This document shows, piece by piece, positions 17,019 to 26,201 of a stretch of DNA of 64,000 nucleotides. The DNA comes from Gammaproteobacteria bacterium (lineage in GTDB: Bacteria; Pseudomonadota; Gammaproteobacteria; Xanthomonadales; Wenzhouxiangellaceae): assembly GCA_003565625.1 (NCBI GenBank), contig PXBD01000031.1, positions 1 through 64,000 on the forward strand, in the 5' to 3' direction. The position numbers were made by a program, and so were the translations under genes. Numbering within the stretch: position 1 is the stretch's first letter; every line of letters begins with the position of its first letter. The notes beneath the pieces are model-generated. The model was not told the DNA's origin and searched no databases. It was given only the letters and a program-made list of their open reading frames with translations.

Positions 17019-18417
17019 ACCTGTCCTCCAAGCGTTCAATGTCGTCTTCGCCGAAATACGTTCCGGTTTGAACCTCGATAATATGCACTTCTTCTTCGCC
17101 CCGGTTCTCCAGGCGGTGCAGTTGCCCGACCCGGATTTGCGTGGCTTGTCCCGGCCCCAGCGTGAACTCCTGGTCATCCAGACGCACGCTGGCCTGTCCC
17201 GATACGACCGTCCAGTGTTCACTTCGCTGACGGTGGCGCTGAAGCGAAAGCACGCCGCCCGGGCGAACCACCAGGCGCTTGACCTTGCAGTCCTGACCGT
17301 CCTCCAGCACCGTGTAACGGCCCCACGGCCGATGCACGGTGCGGTGATGAACGGCAGAATCGTGCTTGGTGCGGGTCAGTTCATCGACCACGGCCTTGAC
17401 ATCCTGGGCCCGTTCGCGGCCGGCCACAAGGACTGCATCCCCGGTATCCACAATCACCAGATCGTCCACGCCGACCGCTGCAACCAGGCGCTGCTCGCCC
17501 TGGACAAACGTGTTGCGCGAATCAACCAGTACGGCTTCACCACTGACCCGGTTGCCGTGCGAATCGCCCTCGTACAATTCGCTGATGGCCTGCCAGGATC
17601 CGATATCGCTCCAGCCGCAACTGACCGGCACCACGGCACGCCGACGCGCTTTTTCCATCACCGCGAAGTCGATCGAATCGGAGCGCAGATCGGCAAAACT
17701 GGCCGGATCCAGCTCCACCGGCTCAGCGCGCGTTGCGGTCGCCTGCCAGACCCGCTCCACGCCGTGCGCGATGTCCGGACTGTGCTCGGCCAGGGCAGCC
17801 AGAATTGCGCCGGCCCGGAAACAGAACATGCCCCCGTTCCAGAGATACTGGCCGGATTCGTAGTAGCGCTGGGCGGTAGCCGCATCCGGCTTCTCGACGA
17901 AGGCCTCGATCGTCTGCCCGCCGCCCTCGGTCCGTCCGGCCCGAATGTATCCGTAGCCGGTCTCGGCGTGCGTGGGATGCACCCCCAGACAAGTCAACCA
18001 GTCGTCGGCGGCCAGCGCCGCGGCCGCGGCAACAGCCGCGGCAAATGCCTCCTGGTCGCGAATCAAATGGTCGGCCGGCAACACCAGCAGGCAGGCCTCC
18101 GGCCCGAAGCGTTCCTGCACCCAGTGTGCCGCCGCGGCAATCGCCGGGGCGGTGTTGCGACCGACCGGCTCGAGCAGGAAGTGGTGATCCCCGGCCGGCG
18201 CGGCTTCACGATACAGGTCCCGGGTCAGAAAATAATAGTCGCGCGAGGTTACGGTCAGCGTCACCTCGCTGGAGCCTACTTTTGCCGCACGCTCAATGGT
18301 GCTCGCAGCCAGGGTCTTGCCGTCGGCCAGGCGCATGAACGGTTTCGGGTGGGCCTTGCGCGAAACCGGCCACAGGCGGGTCCCGGCGCCACCAGACAAA
18401 ATCACGGGTATCAGCAT
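17005..18417 (-). CDS. manC: Mannose-1-phosphate guanylyltransferase / mannose-6-phosphate isomerase
   Basis: A 470-residue bifunctional type II enzyme (ManC/AlgA/CpsB-like). The N-terminal nucleotidyltransferase signature is ILSGGAGTRLWPVSRKAHPK. The C-terminal cupin domain (RPWGRYTVLEDGQ, then RPGGVLSLQRHRQRSEHWTV) performs the isomerase step. The products feed GDP-mannose for polysaccharide. The ATG at 18415-18417 overlaps the region of the rmlD stop codon, and AGAGG lies just upstream. It follows the dTDP-rhamnose genes directly. Confidence 0.95.
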   Translation of the reverse strand: MLIPVILSGGAGTRLWPVSRKAHPKPFMRLADGKTLAASTIERAAKVGSSEVTLTVTSRDYYFLTRDLYREAAPAGDHHFLLEPVGRNTAPAIAAAAHWVQERFGPEACLLVLPADHLIRDQEAFAAAVAAAAALAADDWLTCLGVHPTHAETGYGYIRAGRTEGGGQTIEAFVEKPDAATAQRYYESGQYLWNGGMFCFRAGAILAALAEHSPDIAHGVERVWQATATRAEPVELDPASFADLRSDSIDFAVMEKARRRAVVPVSCGWSDIGSWQAISELYEGDSHGNRVSGEAVLVDSRNTFVQGEQRLVAAVGVDDLVIVDTGDAVLVAGRERAQDVKAVVDELTRTKHDSAVHHRTVHRPWGRYTVLEDGQDCKVKRLVVRPGGVLSLQRHRQRSEHWTVVSGQASVRLDDQEFTLGPGQATQIRVGQLHRLENRGEEEVHIIEVQTGTYFGEDDIERLEDRYGRV

Positions 18418-19304
18418 GCCTCTTCCTTCCACTCCTCAAGACAGGTCGCCAGCGCCTGCCGGGTAGTCCAGGCGGTGCAACCGGTGCATTGTTCCAGGGC
18501 CTCGACATCGAGCACCGACCAGCTCGGCCGACGCGCCTTCTGCGGCCACTCGGCCGAATCGATCGCCGCAACCGGCACCACTTCATCGATCAGACCGCGC
18601 TCGGCCGCCATAGTTACCGCCAACTCGGCAAATGCATGCCAGCTGACACAGCCACGGTCGACGGCATGCAGCGTCACCGGTTCCGGCCTGGGCAAGCAGT
18701 CGCCCAGCGCTGCCACGGTCATGCGCGCCAGGCTGCCGGCCCAGGTTGGGGAACCAATCTGATCGGATACAACCCGCAACGGCTCCCCACTCGCGGCGCG
18801 ACGCAGAATCGCGCTCAGGAAATTTCCCGGCAGGCGGCTGTAGAGCCAGGCGGTGCGCAAAATGAGAGCGTGGGCTCCGGAACGGCGGATCGCCTCTTCG
18901 CCGGCCAGCTTGGTGCGGCCGTAGACGCTTACCGGCGAGGTTGGATCGAACTCGTTCCAGGCTCGTCCGGGCTCGCCGTCAAATACGTAGTCGGTGGAGA
19001 AATGCACCAGGCGCGCGCCGTGGGCCGCACACCAGGCCGCCAGCCGGGTCGGGAGCTCAACATTCAGCGCCGCGGCCGCGGCCGGCTCGTCCTCGGCCGC
19101 GTCGACGGCGGTCCATGCCGCCGGGTTGATGATCACATCCGGCCTGGCCCCGTCGAGCAGATCATCCAGGGCCTCGGTCTCGGTCAAGTCGCACGGCCAG
19201 TCGCCGCCCCTGCGAGTGCTGGTAATGACTTCTCCCAGCACCTCAAGCCGCGGTGTCAGGTGGCGGCCAAGTTGACCGTCGGCACCGGTCAGCAGAATCC
19301 TCAC
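18411..19304 (-). CDS. rfbD: dTDP-4-dehydrorhamnose reductase
   Basis: A 297-residue extended SDR that completes dTDP-L-rhamnose synthesis. LLTGADGQLGRHL is the nucleotide-binding motif, FSTDYVFDG follows, and VYGRTKLAGE contains the Tyr-x-x-x-Lys pair. The GTG start overlaps the rmlC stop codon as GTGA. It is the third gene of rmlA–rmlC–rmlD–manC. Confidence 0.96.
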   Translation of the reverse strand: MRILLTGADGQLGRHLTPRLEVLGEVITSTRRGGDWPCDLTETEALDDLLDGARPDVIINPAAWTAVDAAEDEPAAAAALNVELPTRLAAWCAAHGARLVHFSTDYVFDGEPGRAWNEFDPTSPVSVYGRTKLAGEEAIRRSGAHALILRTAWLYSRLPGNFLSAILRRAASGEPLRVVSDQIGSPTWAGSLARMTVAALGDCLPRPEPVTLHAVDRGCVSWHAFAELAVTMAAERGLIDEVVPVAAIDSAEWPQKARRPSWSVLDVEALEQCTGCTAWTTRQALATCLEEWKEEAC

Positions 19305-19849
19305 GCCGGCAGCCGGCTGCGCTCGACCTCGCTCAAGCGAGGCGCGGCGGCGTCCTTGGCCGACAGCCCGGCCGGCGGCAGCGGCCAGTCAACCGCGATG
19401 GTGGGATCATTCCAGGCCAGGGCGGCATCATATTCGCCCCGATAGGGCCGGGTGCACAGGTAATGGAACGTGGCCTGCTCGCTGAGGACCTGGAATCCAT
19501 GCGCAAAACCTTCGGGAATCCAGAGCTGCTGGTGCTGCTCGCCGTCCAGCTCGATCCCCGCCCAGCGGCCGAAGTCAGGCGAATCCGGACGGATATCCAC
19601 GGCCACATCCAGCACCCGCCCGGCGCTGACCCAGACCAGCTTTCCCTGCGGCTCGGGCCACTGGTAGTGCAAACCGCGCAGCACGCCGCGCGTTGAACAG
19701 GAGGCGTTACCCTGCACGAAATCCGGCCCGATCCCGTGGGCCAGGTAGCGCTCCCGGCGCCAGGTCTCCAGGAACCAGCCGCGCTCGTCGGTGAACACCT
19801 GCGGGGTGATCAGCAACACACCCGGCAACTCGGTGGCCTCGACCTTCAT
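19301..19849 (-). CDS. rfbC: dTDP-4-dehydrorhamnose 3,5-epimerase
   Basis: A 182-residue cupin epimerase. The family blocks [19 protein letters not shown] (with the catalytic His), [16 protein letters not shown] and the tyrosine of FHYLCTRPY are all visible. The ATG overlaps the rmlA stop codon as ATGA, so translation is coupled. Confidence 0.96.
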
Positions 19850-20733
19850 GGTCCGAACCGGCTGTCGGCAACCATGCGGAGATAATCCCCGTAGCCACTC
19901 TTGGCCAGCGGTCCGGCCAGTTCCAGCAGCTGATCGCGATCGATCCAGCCCTGGCGGTAGGCAATCTCTTCAGGACAAGCCACGCGCAGGCCCTGACGCG
20001 ATTCCAGGGTCTCGATATAGCTGGCCGCCTGCTGCAAAGAGGCATGGGTACCGGTATCCAGCCAGGCATAGCCGCGCCCCATGCGCTCGACCGTCAGATC
20101 CCCGGCCTCCAGGTAGAGGCGGTTCAAATCGGTGATTTCCAGCTCGCCGCGCGGCGAGGGCTTGAGTTCTGCGGCCAAGTCGCAGACGCGCTCATCGTAG
20201 AAATACAGGCCGGTAACCGCATAGTTCGATTTCGGCTGTTCCGGTTTTTCCTCCAGCGCAATTGCCCCGCCCGCTTCATCCATCTCTACCACCCCGTAAC
20301 GTTCGGGATCAGAGACCCAGTATCCGAACACGGTCGCACCGTGTTGCCGGGCGGCCGCGCGGGCCAGCAATTCACGCAGGCCGCCGCCATGGAAGATGTT
20401 GTCGCCGAGAATCAGGCAGGACGGCTTGCCGGCAACAAACTCGCGCCCGATCAGAAACGCCTGGGCCAGACCACCGGGGTGCGGCTGGGCGGCATACGCC
20501 AGGCGTAGCCCCCACTGGCTGCCGTCGCCCAGCAACTGCTGGAACAGGTGCTGTTCATGCGGCGTGGTAATCAGAAGAATCTCGTCCATCCCGGCCATCA
20601 TCAACGTGGTCAGCGGGTAATAGATCATCGGCTTGTCGTAGACCGGAAGCAGTTGCTTGCTGATCACCTGGGTCAGCGGGTAGAGCCGGGTACCGGAACC
20701 GCCGGCAAGGATGATGCCTTTTCTGTTATCCAC
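19846..20733 (-). CDS. rfbA: Glucose-1-phosphate thymidylyltransferase
   Basis: A 295-residue enzyme that makes dTDP-glucose, the first step of dTDP-rhamnose synthesis. [20 protein letters not shown] is the signature, and [10 protein letters not shown] and [12 protein letters not shown] are further family blocks. The start is GTG with AGGA about 6 nt upstream. A 205-bp gap separates it from rmlB, so it may have its own promoter. Confidence 0.97.
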
Positions 20734-20765
20734 TCTCCATCCTTAGACAAGAAACTGACATCAGG

Positions 20766-20783
20766 GCAGAGTACCGCAGATGA
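20766..20783 (+). repeat. Dispersed GCAGATGA intergenic repeat, copy 1
   Basis: GCAGAGTACCGCAGATGA matches the copy at 52583-52600 in 17 of 18 positions. It lies in the 205-bp rmlB–rmlA gap (20734-20938), which contains no gene I can support. Confidence 0.6.
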
Positions 20784-20938
20784 GCGTGCCACGGGGCGCG
20801 AGTGCTGACACGGCTGCGGTGGTTGCGGCGGAAGGCCTCGCCACGCGTCGAACTGAAGCCGGAACCACCGCAGTCGCGCCCCGCCCCCACGCAACCGAGG
20901 CCACCCCGGCAGCGCCTTGTGCCCAGGATTGGAGCTCG

Positions 20939-21982
20939 CTATGTTCTGCCGATGCCGAGGCGCTCCGACCGGTAACTGCCATCGCGGATACGCTGCCACC
21001 AGTCGCGGTTGTCCAGGTACCAGTCGACGGTCTGGGCAAGGCCAGTGGCGAAGTCAACCGAAGGTTCCCAGCCCAGTTCGGCCCTGATGCGCTCGGCATT
21101 GATCGCGTAGCGCCGGTCGTGGCCGGGGCGGTCGGTCACGTACTCGATCAGTTCGCGCCGCGGACGGGCGCCCGGCACACGCTCGTCGAGCAGATCACAG
21201 AGCAAGTGGACCACATCCAGGTTGGCCATCTCGGCGTTGCCGCCAATGTTGTACACCCGGCCCGGCTCACCCCCCTCCAATACCCGCAAAATGGCCTTGC
21301 AATGGTCGATCACGAACAGCCAGTCGCGCCGCTGCTGGCCGTCACCGTAAACCGGCAGGCGCTCGCCCTCCAGCGCGTTGCCCAACATCAAGGGAATCAA
21401 CTTTTCCGGAAACTGGTAGGGGCCGTAGTTGTTGGAACAGTTGGTGATCATCACCGGCAGACCATAGGTCCGGTGCCAGGCCCGGGCCAGATGATCGGCC
21501 GCTGCCTTCGAGGCCGCGTAGGGAGAATTGGGGGCGTAGCGATGCCGTTCAGTGAACTCCGGCTCGCCCACTTTCAGAGTGCCGTACACCTCGTCGGTAG
21601 AGACATGAACAAAGCGAAAATCATCGGCACCGCTTTTCCAGTAGTCCAGCGCGGCATCCAGCAAAGTCTGGGTGCCGATCACGTTGGTGCGGATAAAAGC
21701 GCCCGGGTCATCAATCGAGCGATCGACATGGCTTTCGGCGGCAAAATGCACCAGGCCGTCGGGACGATGCTCGGCAAGCAGCCGCCGGACCAGTTCGGCA
21801 TCGCAAATATCACCGTGCACGAACCGATGGCGTTCCGGATCCAGCCCGGCCAGCGACTCACGGTTGCCGGCGTAGGTCAGGAAGTCAAGGTTGACGACCG
21901 TATGATCGAATCCCGCCAAGACATGGCGAACAAAGTTCGAGCCGATGAAACCGGCACCGCCGGTAACAAGCAGTTTGGACAT
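20939..21982 (-). CDS. rfbB: dTDP-glucose 4,6-dehydratase
   Basis: A 347-residue extended SDR. LVTGGAGFIGSNFVRHVL is the NAD motif, HFAAESHVDRSI the substrate block, STDEVYGTL the catalytic region and YAASKAAADH the Tyr-x-x-x-Lys. The ATG at 21980-21982 is the family start; a TTG further upstream sits against the ssb stop codon. It lies 39 bp downstream of ssb and upstream of the rmlACD group, so the four rhamnose genes are split by a 205-bp spacer. Confidence 0.96.
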   Translation of the reverse strand: MSKLLVTGGAGFIGSNFVRHVLAGFDHTVVNLDFLTYAGNRESLAGLDPERHRFVHGDICDAELVRRLLAEHRPDGLVHFAAESHVDRSIDDPGAFIRTNVIGTQTLLDAALDYWKSGADDFRFVHVSTDEVYGTLKVGEPEFTERHRYAPNSPYAASKAAADHLARAWHRTYGLPVMITNCSNNYGPYQFPEKLIPLMLGNALEGERLPVYGDGQQRRDWLFVIDHCKAILRVLEGGEPGRVYNIGGNAEMANLDVVHLLCDLLDERVPGARPRRELIEYVTDRPGHDRRYAINAERIRAELGWEPSVDFATGLAQTVDWYLDNRDWWQRIRDGSYRSERLGIGRT

Positions 21983-22021
21983 TCGCTTAAGCTCTGTAGA
22001 CGTTGCCTGGATTGCAGGCAA

Positions 22022-22601: not shown

Positions 22602-23600
22602 ATGAATGATGTCTCCCTGGTTTCCCCACCGCAGTCGCTCGACGATGTGCTGGCCCTGGCCGATCGCGACCGGCAGGCGGTGAATCGGCTGATCCAGGCG
22701 CGGCTGGCCTCCGAGGTGGTTCTGGTCAACCAGATCGGCCATCACATCATTCACGGTGGCGGCAAGCGCCTGCGGCCGCTGCTGCACGTGCTGTGCGCGC
22801 GCGCCGCCGGTTACCATGGCGATGACCATATTCAGCTGGCCGTGGTCATCGAGTTCATCCACACCGCAACCCTGCTGCACGACGACGTCATTGATGAATC
22901 CGGGCTGCGGCGGGGCCGCGAGACAGCCCACCGGATCTGGGGCAACGCCGCATCGGTTCTGGTCGGCGACTTTCTCTACTCACGAAGTTTCCAGCTCATG
23001 GTCGAGCTCGACCGGCTGGAAGTCATGCGCATTCTCGCCGACACCACCAACACCATCGCCGAGGGCGAAGTGCTGCAGCTGATGCAGATGGGCAATCTCG
23101 AGCTGACCGAGCAGGACTATTTCCGGGTCATTTCCGACAAGACCGCGTGCCTATTTGCCGCCAGTGCCCGGCTGGGCGCAGTCGTCGCCGACCTGCCCCC
23201 GGCCAGCTGCGACCGACTGGCCGATTTCGGATTGCTGCTCGGGCAGGCCTTCCAGATTGCCGATGACGTGCTGGACTACCAGGCCGACGGCGATCAACTG
23301 GGCAAGAACCTGGGCGATGATCTCGCGGAAGGCAAGGTGACCCTGCCCCTGATTCTCGCCCTGCAGCAGGCGCCAGCTGCCGATGCCGAGCGCTTGCGCG
23401 GCATCATCGCCGGCCAGGATCCAGCCGGGCTCGGCGAGGTCCAGCGCATTCTGCGCACGACCGGGGCACTGGAGCAGTCGCTGGACAAGGCGCGCAGCCT
23501 GGCCGCACAGGCCGGGGCGGTGCTCGAGCTTCTGCCCGATACGCCGCAGCGCTGCGCCCTGGAGATTCTGTCGCGCTACGCGGTGGATCGGTCCCTGTAG
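22602..23600 (+). CDS. ispB: Polyprenyl (octaprenyl-type) diphosphate synthase
   Basis: A 332-residue all-helical trans-prenyltransferase providing the ubiquinone side chain. The first Asp-rich motif is LLHDDVIDESGLRRG, the second is QIADDVLDYQADG, and GGGKRLRPLL is the N-terminal IPP-binding block. Chain length cannot be read reliably. The ATG at 22602 agrees with the family N-terminus, but there is no Shine-Dalgarno sequence, and a TATAAT lies only 8 bp upstream. Its 3' end overlaps convergent murD2 by 25 bp. Confidence 0.94.
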   Translation: MNDVSLVSPPQSLDDVLALADRDRQAVNRLIQARLASEVVLVNQIGHHIIHGGGKRLRPLLHVLCARAAGYHGDDHIQLAVVIEFIHTATLLHDDVIDESGLRRGRETAHRIWGNAASVLVGDFLYSRSFQLMVELDRLEVMRILADTTNTIAEGEVLQLMQMGNLELTEQDYFRVISDKTACLFAASARLGAVVADLPPASCDRLADFGLLLGQAFQIADDVLDYQADGDQLGKNLGDDLAEGKVTLPLILALQQAPAADAERLRGIIAGQDPAGLGEVQRILRTTGALEQSLDKARSLAAQAGAVLELLPDTPQRCALEILSRYAVDRSL

Positions 23601-24901
23601 GCGGCCACGGCGCGGCGGAATTGCTCACCGCGATCTTCAAAGTCCCTGAACTGCGGGAAGCTGGCCGCACCGGGGCTGAGCACGATACAGGCTCTTTCCC
23701 CGGCCAGACTCGCCGCCGCTACCACCGCCTCCACCAGATCAGCGGCGTGGAGCATGGGAATGGCGCAATCGCTTCCAGCCGCAGCGAACTCCTGTGCGAT
23801 TCCGGGCCCGCTATTCGGCAACAGCACCAGGCCGGCCAGCGGACGAGACCGGCAATACTCAATCACGACCCCCCAGTCGGCCGGTCGCACATAGCCTCCG
23901 GCGATCAGGACAATGGGTTCGGCATGCAGCGCCTGCAGCGCGGCCAGAGTGGCGTGCGGGGTGGTTGCGATCGAGTCGTTGATCCAGCGCTGGGCACCGT
24001 CGGCAGCGACGATTTCCAGCCGGTGCGGCAGGGGACGAAACGAGCGCAGCGCAGCCACGATCGTATCGGCCGAAAGACCAAGCTCAAGCGCCGCCTCGAA
24101 CGCCAACGCGGCGTTGTCGAGATTGTGCTGCCCGAGCAATGCCCAGTCCGAGGCCTGCAGTATGTCCACGCCTGCATGCACCAAGCCATTGCCACAGCGA
24201 TGAGATCGCGGCGGCCGATTGGCCAGCACCCGCCCCGGCACCGCTTCAGTGGCCGCGACCAGGACCGGGTCTGCCGCGTTGATCAGCAAGGGGTTACCGC
24301 CCAGCAAATCGGCCATGCGCAGCTTGCTGGCGTAGTAGTGCTCGACCCCACCATGCCAGTCGCCGTGCTCGGGAAACAGGCGCGTCATCAGGCCCAGCGC
24401 CAGGCGCCCCTGCAGGTCGGCCAGTTGATAGCTCGACAACTCCAGGACCGCGATATCGATCTCGTCTGCCAAGTGTTCCAGAGCCGGGGAGCCGATATTT
24501 CCGGCCAGCAGGACGCGCCGCCCGCCCGCGCGCAAAGCGTGCGCAAGCAGCGACGCCGTGGTGCTCTTGCCCTTCGAGCCGGTCACCGCCACAACCGGGA
24601 TGTCTGGCCTTTCGGCCAGCCAGATCGAGGTTGGATTGACGATCGGCCGGCCGGTGGCGCGGAACCGCTCCAGGGCCGGGTGCAACACCGGAACCCCCGG
24701 CGAGCGAATCAGCAGGTCAAAATCCAGTAATTGCTCGTCGAACGGCCCGATGCGCACCGGGACATCGGCCGGCACAGCGCCCGATTCCGCGCAGACCGTC
24801 GGCTGCAGTCCGCGCGCGCGCAACACCGCTTGGACGGCCGCACCTTCCCGGCCGTACCCCAGCACCGCAATCCGCCGATTGAGCAGTTGCTCAATTCGCA
24901 C
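23576..24901 (-). CDS. murD2: MurD2-type UDP-MurNAc-L-Ala–L-glutamate ligase
   Basis: A 441-residue Mur ligase. The ATP loop is TGSKGKST (residues 107-114), ELSSYQL and the SK pair near residue 193 are conserved, and the C-terminal domain ends LSPGAASFPQFRDFEDRG. It differs from classical MurD: FPEHGDWHGG (residues 176-185) replaces the NVTEDHMDRY-like segment, and the DSKAT block reads DSIATTP. These features, and the adjacent MurL gene, fit the MurD2 type described in Xanthomonas, which adds L-Glu instead of D-Glu to UDP-MurNAc-L-Ala. The GTG start overlaps the end of murL by 11 nt, with GGAG 8 nt upstream. Confidence 0.85.
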   Translation of the reverse strand: MRIEQLLNRRIAVLGYGREGAAVQAVLRARGLQPTVCAESGAVPADVPVRIGPFDEQLLDFDLLIRSPGVPVLHPALERFRATGRPIVNPTSIWLAERPDIPVVAVTGSKGKSTTASLLAHALRAGGRRVLLAGNIGSPALEHLADEIDIAVLELSSYQLADLQGRLALGLMTRLFPEHGDWHGGVEHYYASKLRMADLLGGNPLLINAADPVLVAATEAVPGRVLANRPPRSHRCGNGLVHAGVDILQASDWALLGQHNLDNAALAFEAALELGLSADTIVAALRSFRPLPHRLEIVAADGAQRWINDSIATTPHATLAALQALHAEPIVLIAGGYVRPADWGVVIEYCRSRPLAGLVLLPNSGPGIAQEFAAAGSDCAIPMLHAADLVEAVVAAASLAGERACIVLSPGAASFPQFRDFEDRGEQFRRAVAAYRDRSTA

Positions 24902-26201
24902 CGAGTAACTCCGCGGGCAGCAAATGATCCCCGTCGGGCTGACACAGTTCTTCGAGATCGGCCACCTCGATCCCGTTCAGACGCGCCTGGAGTGCCTGCA
25001 CGACGACGTGACCCTGCCAGCAAGCACTGCGGGTCAGCGCGACCAGGGCCGAGCGCGCCTCGGCGGCCTCGCCCACGCATTCGAAGGGCTTTTGACCGTC
25101 GAGCGCCAGCAGACGGGCGAAACCTTCGATCTGGGCCGGATCATCCAGCAAATCCGCGCCGAAGATGCCGGCAAGGCGTTGCGGAGACAGAAACGGGGCC
25201 AGGCCGAGAAAAACAAAGTGGCACTTCGGGCACTGGCCGCACCAGCGCGAGGTGCGCGGCCCGTCGAGGTGGAAATTGCGGTTGCAGGAAGAAAACACGT
25301 CGTGAAACTCTTCCAGGAGCGCAAATTCGCGGCAGATGGCCAGTTCGCGCTCGCGCCGAAGCACGGAAAAGACCGCCAGGTCGGGGGCAATGTAATACCG
25401 AACCCAGGCATCGAGCATCCGCTCGAACGCCAGCGTCTTGGCGAACTGATGGTTGACCGCCTGCCCGTGCCGGTTGAACAAGGTCGGCTCTTCGGCCGAA
25501 CGCTCGTTGGCAAATGCGACCCCCCCGTAACCGTGCAGCAGCGCCAGAACAATCAGGGCCGCGGCATTGATGGCCGTGATCGGCACATGCCCATTGAAGG
25601 CTCCGGCCGCATTGAGTTCAGCCAGCTTCGGATCAAGCTGGCGCCGGATGACCAGGTGCCGGCTGCCGGTGCGCGCCGCGACTTGGCCGATCAGGCGCGA
25701 TGATCCAACCTGAACCGTTGCCCCGACCCGACCCCGGCGCGCCAGTCGGGCCCAGGCAACCAGCGAATCCTTGCCCCCACCCATCGGCACCAGCAGTTCG
25801 GCCCCGAGACCCGCCCCCGCCACGGGGCCGGCTGCCGGCCGGTCCGAGCGAAACGGGGAGAACCACGCCGCCGGCAATTCCTCGCGGAAGGCGAATTCGG
25901 CCAGACCCTTGCTGTAGAGCTGGTTCAGCCAGTCGGCCTGCCAGTGATCAGGGCCCGGCGAACAAAACGACACCTGCTGCGGGCAAGCGGCCTTCCAGTA
26001 GCTGACTCCGGCCACCCAGTGCAGCAAATCCAGCGCCGCAGTCAGCCCCGGACCGGTCCGGCCCTGATGTTCCGGCAGCGGGAAGTCAAACGCTTCCGTC
26101 AGGGCGAGATCATCGATTCGGTAGCGCAACCGGAGCCGTCCAGTCTGCGGCTGCCAATCATGGCCGTCAAACAGAAACTCGCTGCAGGCGCGCGCATCCA
26201 T
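24891..26201 (-). CDS. murL: MurL, UDP-MurNAc-L-Ala–L-Glu epimerase
   Basis: A 436-residue protein matching the MurL family. In Xanthomonas, MurL activates the terminal L-glutamate of UDP-MurNAc-L-Ala-L-Glu with ATP and inverts it to D-Glu. An ATP-pyrophosphatase-like loop, PMGGGKDSLVAW, lies at residues 139-150. FANERSAEEPTLFN and the Cys cluster RWCGQCPKC (Cys 321, 324, 327) are further conserved-looking parts, the latter a possible metal site. Together with MurD2 it would make a separate glutamate racemase unnecessary for the wall. It is 29 bp downstream of the AI-2E-type permease gene and likely in the same operon. Confidence 0.87.
   Translation of the reverse strand: MDARACSEFLFDGHDWQPQTGRLRLRYRIDDLALTEAFDFPLPEHQGRTGPGLTAALDLLHWVAGVSYWKAACPQQVSFCSPGPDHWQADWLNQLYSKGLAEFAFREELPAAWFSPFRSDRPAAGPVAGAGLGAELLVPMGGGKDSLVAWARLARRGRVGATVQVGSSRLIGQVAARTGSRHLVIRRQLDPKLAELNAAGAFNGHVPITAINAAALIVLALLHGYGGVAFANERSAEEPTLFNRHGQAVNHQFAKTLAFERMLDAWVRYYIAPDLAVFSVLRRERELAICREFALLEEFHDVFSSCNRNFHLDGPRTSRWCGQCPKCHFVFLGLAPFLSPQRLAGIFGADLLDDPAQIEGFARLLALDGQKPFECVGEAAEARSALVALTRSACWQGHVVVQALQARLNGIEVADLEELCQPDGDHLLPAELLGAN

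Follow-up and report, generated by a model that had tools for sequence, protein, structure and literature searches.

Two overlapping genes on the reverse strand are the subject of this analysis. They lie in a stretch of 64,000 nucleotides (nt), hereafter the window, which comprises positions 1 to 64,000 of contig PXBD01000031.1 (assembly GCA_003565625.1) from a gammaproteobacterium of the Wenzhouxiangellaceae. We read them as murL and murD2, a pair that, judging from the sequences, is very probably the organism's sole source of D-glutamate (D-Glu) for its peptidoglycan (probability roughly 0.88). An earlier note, made from the DNA letters alone, had named the same pair, and three results now bear it out: a full-length MurL match of the upstream product, a MurD2-type residue set in the ligase, and an overlap of 11 nt between the two genes. 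The features on which the argument draws are listed below.

24891-26201 (−): murL, 436 amino acids, ATG start; full-length match to family NF041275, with matches in 59 of 61 genomes
25764-25781 (−): GGGKDS PP-loop of MurL, residues 141-146; in 107 of 107 distinct MurLs, within the part that aligns to QueC/QatC
25221-25286 (−): four-cysteine, zinc-site-like region of MurL (C306, C321, C324, C327); in 107 of 107, aligned to the QueC cysteines and in the order of the QatC zinc cysteines
25077-25079 (−): C375 of MurL in an invariant ECVG, candidate catalytic residue; in 107 of 107
24891-24901 (−): 11-nt overlap of the murL end with the GTG start of murD2, from open reading frame coordinates and comparison of related loci
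23576-24901 (−): MurD2-type ligase (murD2), 441 amino acids, GTG start; MurD family with E178/I311/R339 against D/K/K in Escherichia coli; the single murD of the assembly over cut-off
24353-24376 (−): FPEHGDWH block of MurD2 with E178 (E197 in Xanthomonas oryzae, D182 in E. coli by alignment; role from excerpts of PMC8788868)
23957-23977 (−): DSIATTP block of MurD2 with I311 at the E. coli K319 position by alignment; effect of K319T from excerpts of PMC8788868
23885-23887 (−): R339 of MurD2 (R358 in X. oryzae, K348 in E. coli by alignment; role from excerpts of PMC8788868)

Residue signatures of MurL and the ligase

Against NCBIfam, the MurL of the window matched NF041275 with 436 bits (E 8.8e-131; residues 4-433 on positions 5-440 of a model of 447), and this was the sole family found at E up to 1. 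The genomes with matches are 59 of a set of 61 that consists of its own genome and 60 relatives; 14 control genomes gave no match to NF041275. Both elements that the earlier note had seen in the overlapping upstream gene, a GGGKDS loop and a cysteine cluster, are present (C306...C321-x2-C324-x2-C327), and they belong to a set that is invariant in the 107 distinct MurLs: GGGKDS, NGH at 203-205, H251, K255, the four cysteines, and C375. Conservation at the PP-loop and cysteine motifs is partly a product of selection, because the filter by which MurLs were extracted required a GGK[DE][ST]-like motif together with a cysteine motif, and because the 80 loci of the named collection, the best 80 of at least 571, were found by the patterns FSSCNRNF and WCGxCPKC; the MurL of locus L226 was not parsed and stands outside the count of 107. 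In a Pfam scan of 26 MurLs, 11 families came up at E up to 1, the lowest value being 0.011. They included Zn_ribbon_LapB (8 members), DUF4081, DUF6395, and, for a single protein, the PP-loop family PAPS_reduct (E 0.25); the MurL of the window matched Zn_ribbon_LapB alone (E 0.78). A profile search against PDB sequences was headed by PP-loop-region matches to TtuA (E 0.03), and a PADLOC scan of three MurLs gave no match.

The two genes are closely joined: the TGA stop of murL and the GTG start of murD2 both fall within the 11-nt overlap, with GGAG immediately 5′ of the GTG, and a candidate murD2 start that overlaps the end of murL by 1-23 nt was present in all 16 related loci with a result (17 were entered; L017 gave no result, and L081 and L082 are apparently second copies of genomes already included).

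Aligned to E. coli MurD, the ligase has E178 at the position of D182, I311 at that of K319, and R339 at that of K348 (E. coli numbers are one higher if the start methionine is counted). According to excerpts of PMC8788868, the X. oryzae MurD2 carries Glu197 and Arg358 where the E. coli enzyme has Asp182 and Lys348: Changing both residues back turns it into a D-Glu ligase, E197D and R358K each altered specificity singly, and a P433A mutant kept the wild-type stereospecificity, while E. coli MurD K319T accepts L-glutamate (L-Glu). The earlier observation that the ligase departs from classical MurD in the segments FPEHGDWH and DSIATTP therefore stands, since these blocks hold the discriminating E178 and I311. 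We compared 107 distinct ligases, taken from a set of 142 rows after removal of E. coli and duplicates, with the short ligase of L143 dropped and L172-L175 outside the set (L174, missed in the main residue alignment, was read separately). At the positions corresponding to 182/319/348 they read E/I/R in 103 cases, E/L/R in two, D/K/K in one (genome G054), and E/I/K in one (genome G036). Glutamate and arginine thus occur together in 105 of the 107, both exceptions coming from genomes that bear a glutamate racemase and lack MurL, and the K319 position holds isoleucine or leucine in 106. A residue other than lysine at the K319 position may serve as a further mark of MurD2; this is our own reading, as the excerpts of the paper give the effect of K319T in E. 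coli alone. As far as the sequences tell, it is these specificity residues that separate MurD2 from MurD.

Contigs from metagenome-assembled genomes with the label Actinomycetota (L134) or Dormiibacterota (L144, L148) also carry MurL homologues, and in L134 and L144 the ligase is again E/I/R.

D-Glutamate supply in the organism and its relatives

The assembly comprises 2.8 Mb in 95 contigs and is 89.5% complete. It contains one murD-type gene over cut-off, and eight further matches fall below, in keeping with the presence of other Mur ligases and FolC-like genes. In E. coli, murD lies between mraY and ftsW. The division and cell wall (dcw) cluster on the contig of the window reads rsmH-ftsI-murE-murF-mraY-ftsW-murG-murC-ddl-ftsQ-ftsA-ftsZ-lpxC (names read from the open reading frames), and no murD stands between mraY and ftsW in it (L075): mraY runs straight into ftsW. 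No glutamate racemase (murI) was found in the assembly by PF01177 or TIGR00067, so that the lack of both murI and a second murD, on which the earlier note had made its claim of a sole route depend, is borne out at this degree of completeness. No D-amino-acid transaminase over cut-off was found in the 15 genomes examined, the own genome included. A class-IV aminotransferase of the organism was considered as a source of D-Glu and rejected; it scores below every cut-off listed and lies nearest to the branched-chain subfamily (236 bits, cut-off 363).

Across the 61 genomes, a racemase over cut-off is present in two, precisely the MurL-less G036 and G054 (Fisher p 0.0005, relatedness ignored); racemase-family matches at E 0.001 occur in 20, 18 of them below cut-off. 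In the order, MurL was found in 391 of 397 genomes and a racemase in six: 387 have MurL alone, two the racemase alone, four both, and four neither. At E 1e-40, murD was not matched in the last four either, which probably means that their assemblies lack the entire linked locus. The class was sampled with 377 genomes: MurL occurs in 11 and a racemase in 136, with none shared (Fisher p 0.009, relatedness ignored); six of the 11 belong to the order of the window, its own genome included, and G709, outside the order, has a partial match of 107 bits. The racemase search in the order and the searches in the class were limited to E 1e-20, which hides weaker matches. This distribution suggests that most of the order uses the MurD2–MurL route. 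The claim of a sole route thereby gains support from one murD over cut-off, no murI, a dcw cluster devoid of murD, and the near mutual exclusion of MurL and MurI in relatives.

The two MurL-less genomes differ from each other. In G054, the D/K/K ligase lies within the dcw cluster. G036, which belongs to the same family as the window (98% complete, 3% contamination), has its ligase (contig C4, L158: 7045-8394) near polyprenyl synthase, SSB, and rfbB genes, a neighbourhood shared by G032, which is of the same genus as G036, and by the window. From this native locus murL is absent, no MurL remnant was found beside the ligase (best E 0.46), and a racemase of 220 bits lies on another contig of 492 kb (C12, L039). 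In the tree, the G036 ligase falls within the MurD2 group as the sister of the MurD2 of G032 (support 0.998), and its key arginine is now a lysine in place, the glutamate being retained. Because murL is lost, a racemase is present, and the ligase is nested in MurD2 with an Arg-to-Lys exchange, G036 appears to represent a lineage that has returned to the use of D-Glu, that is, an apparent natural reversion.

Several observations weigh against the pair being the MurD2–MurL route and the only one: The MurL score of 436 bits stays below the curated cut-off of NF041275 (700); the best NCBIfam match of the ligase is the classical murD model TIGR01087 (288.9 bits, cut-off 211.95); the class-IV aminotransferase scores 137 bits against the D-amino-acid transaminase model TIGR01121 (cut-off 277); both MurL and a racemase over the TIGR00067 cut-off are missing from 230 of the 377 class genomes; four of the 397 order genomes have both (G138, G359, G378, G411); and murI could be missing from the assembly given its completeness. 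The NF041275 cut-off is reached in nine of the 61 genomes as compared with 59 that match, which is why we regard it as seemingly tuned to a core of the order, so that the low score weakens just an equivalog call of NCBI grade. TIGR01087, in turn, is exceeded in 60 of the 61 genomes; as MurL-bearing ones are among them, this model does not discriminate between MurD and MurD2, the D-Glu and L-Glu ligases. The earlier note had proposed a profile search of both proteins and had named best matches to classical MurD and to an unrelated PP-loop family as grounds for giving up its reading; the upstream protein proved to be a full-length MurL relative, and the ligase did match classical murD best, i.e. 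one half of those grounds came true, by a model that is blind to the distinction. From the 230 class genomes it follows that absence of a racemase alone proves nothing and that other sources of D-Glu must exist.

It is on such a source that a different explanation builds: The ligase would be a classical MurD that receives its D-Glu from another enzyme such as an aminotransferase, and the PP-loop protein would have a different role. The TIGR01087 match, the class-IV aminotransferase, and the many class members without MurL and MurI fit this explanation, to which we nevertheless give very little weight: The residues at each of the three reported specificity positions are those of the MurD2 type and not Asp182/Lys348, the residue set tracks MurL in the way described for the 107 ligases and their two exceptions, and the aminotransferase is closer to branched-chain than to D-amino-acid models. 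The pair might also work as MurD2–MurL next to a second D-Glu supply, by a racemase or transaminase that the draft assembly fails to show, as the incomplete assembly and the four order genomes with both enzymes would allow; we hold this to be improbable as well, since G018, G026, and G027, near-complete members of the genus (95-99%, each in one contig), possess MurL and gave no racemase over cut-off (the racemase match of G026, at 23 bits, lies far below it) and since free D-Glu has no obvious use where the only ligase is of the MurD2 type. The ligases of the four order genomes with both enzymes retain the glutamate and the arginine.

Fold and putative chemistry of MurL

If the pair is the MurD2–MurL route, MurD2 would attach L-Glu to the cell-wall precursor, whereupon the PP-loop of MurL would adenylate the α-carboxylate of the attached L-Glu. 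The adenylate would render the α-proton acidic, and deprotonation on one face followed by reprotonation on the other would yield the D form. For X. oryzae, both overall reactions have been demonstrated, and the adenylate step has been put forward as a hypothesis: Adenylation of the α-carboxylate, epimerization, and then hydrolysis were proposed, and the mechanism was called unclear (excerpts of PMC8788868). We infer the same reactions for the organism studied here, with a QueC-like core as the seat of adenylation in MurL.

MurL was said in 2018 to lack known conserved domains (excerpts of PMC5808125). An AlphaFold model built from 26 sequences reached a mean predicted local distance difference test (pLDDT) score of 92.4 and a predicted template modelling (pTM) score of 0.93. 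In a Foldseek search of this model against the PDB, the top two matches were QueC structures at E 3.8e-4 (2pg3) and 1.5e-3, of which the first alone falls below 0.001. VIA-align gave the best agreement with QatC (9y02_B; Z 18.4, 310 residues, root mean square deviation (rmsd) 3.8), the match spanning residues 6-387 of MurL, followed by QueC (2pg3; Z 13.9, 202 residues, rmsd 3.7), Cap9 (9nto_B; Z 13.3, 168 residues, rmsd 2.4), and argininosuccinate synthase (Z 10.2, 146 residues, rmsd 4.2). In profile–profile alignment of MurL with QueC, the PP-loop and the cysteine cluster come into register, weakly so (hhalign probability 14-18%, P 0.0013-0.002); the alignment with QatC is weak as well (P 0.03, 118 columns), and QatC against QueC as positive control gave P 5e-12. 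The link of MurL to QueC and QatC rests on the fold comparison for this reason. Folded alone, the N-terminal domain (residues 1-131; pLDDT 85.7) reached Z values of at most 6.4, many of them with RNase H-like structures, had no Foldseek match at E 0.001 or better, and did not have QatC among the 50 matches listed.

MurL shares with QueC, QatC, and Cap9 the fold of its model, a PP-loop, and the order of its four cysteines; the QueC motif C-x(n)-CxxCxxC, a predicted zinc site, recurs as C-x14-C-x2-C-x2-C. It differs from QueC in its loop, which is GGGKDS in all 107 MurLs as opposed to SGGxDS, in that none of the 26 MurLs matched the Pfam QueC family (PF06508) at E up to 1, and in the proposed last step of its reaction, hydrolysis instead of amide formation. 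The model of MurL shows a four-cysteine PP-loop core like that of QueC, which fits the adenylate-first proposal, and the base and the acid of the epimerization would be found among H205, E233, H251, K255, E374, and C375. For QatC, excerpts of PMC13279940 describe a reaction that is unresolved, extensions of the QueC core at both the N- and the C-terminus, and four cysteines of a zinc site; for these reasons its match with MurL is worth testing. A published link of MurL to the PP-loop or QueC was not found in a search of mainly non-subscription journals, two reviews alone dealt with the topic among the papers listed for MurL and MurD2, and the word "epimerase" does not occur in excerpts of two QueC-family papers of 2026 (PMC13329287, PMC13279940).

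On this basis we tentatively put forward a wider idea, whose chances we rate somewhat below even: MurL would be a QueC-like PP-loop adenylating enzyme of QatC-like architecture, so that carboxylate adenylation of the QueC type would also serve peptide epimerization; QatC would become a candidate for peptide-carboxylate adenylation or epimerization besides deazaguanine transfer; and the pathway would also have been left again in nature, with murL lost, murI present, and arginine replaced by lysine in the ligase.

Gene neighbourhood and relation to known systems

Upstream of the pair, on the same strand and after a gap of 29 nt, lies a gene for an AI-2E-type transporter, and at its other end murD2 is convergent with a polyprenyl synthase gene, their ends overlapping by 25 nt. 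The gene order around the pair is identical in G018, a member of the same genus. Close to the pair, at 22021 down to 18411 (18411-22021, −), the window also holds genes that by eye resemble a dTDP-rhamnose set (rfbB, rfbA, rfbC, rfbD). Elsewhere the arrangement varies: In G046 (C1, C12) and G055 (C46, C8), MurL and MurD2 lie on separate contigs and away from the contig ends, from which we conclude that the two genes have become separated in this genus. An internal TGA in the MurL of these two genomes was considered as recoding and rejected, as the reading frame shows a terminal stop.

The closest characterized system is the MurD2–MurL pair of X. oryzae (XOO_1320/XOO_1319). Here the same gene pair is present and no murI was found; the diagnostic glutamate and arginine are shared, as is the phenylalanine at the position of F435, and Pro433 of X. 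oryzae is replaced by alanine, as in E. coli (X. oryzae residues according to excerpts of PMC8788868). The MurL of the window is 41-46% identical to the MurLs compared from other families in its order and 42% identical to that of Xanthomonas albilineans (L156). With E. coli MurD and MurI, the system shares the ligase family and the pathway step; it differs in the replacement of D182/K348/K319 by E/R/I and in the lack of murD in the dcw cluster and of murI in the assembly. The MurD2–MurL pathway itself is already known. Wenzhouxiangella, by inference the genus of the window, is not in the list of genera given for it in excerpts of PMC8788868 and is not named in those of the review PMC5808125 either; by title, we found no published work on the pathway in this genus. 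What is added here is that the ligase residues track MurL, that G036 appears to have reverted, and that MurL has, in its model, a fold like that of QueC.

The known alternative wall pathway, which has been proposed as a target for narrow-spectrum antibiotics (excerpts of PMC8788868), is thus extended to Wenzhouxiangella, the probable genus of the window, and across the sampled genomes of the order, and its function can be approached by three handles: the residue set, the presence and absence of the genes, and a lineage that has apparently reverted in nature. Should MurL indeed be QueC-like, it would gain a testable active site, and an enzyme of cell-wall synthesis would be tied structurally to the anti-phage protein QatC.

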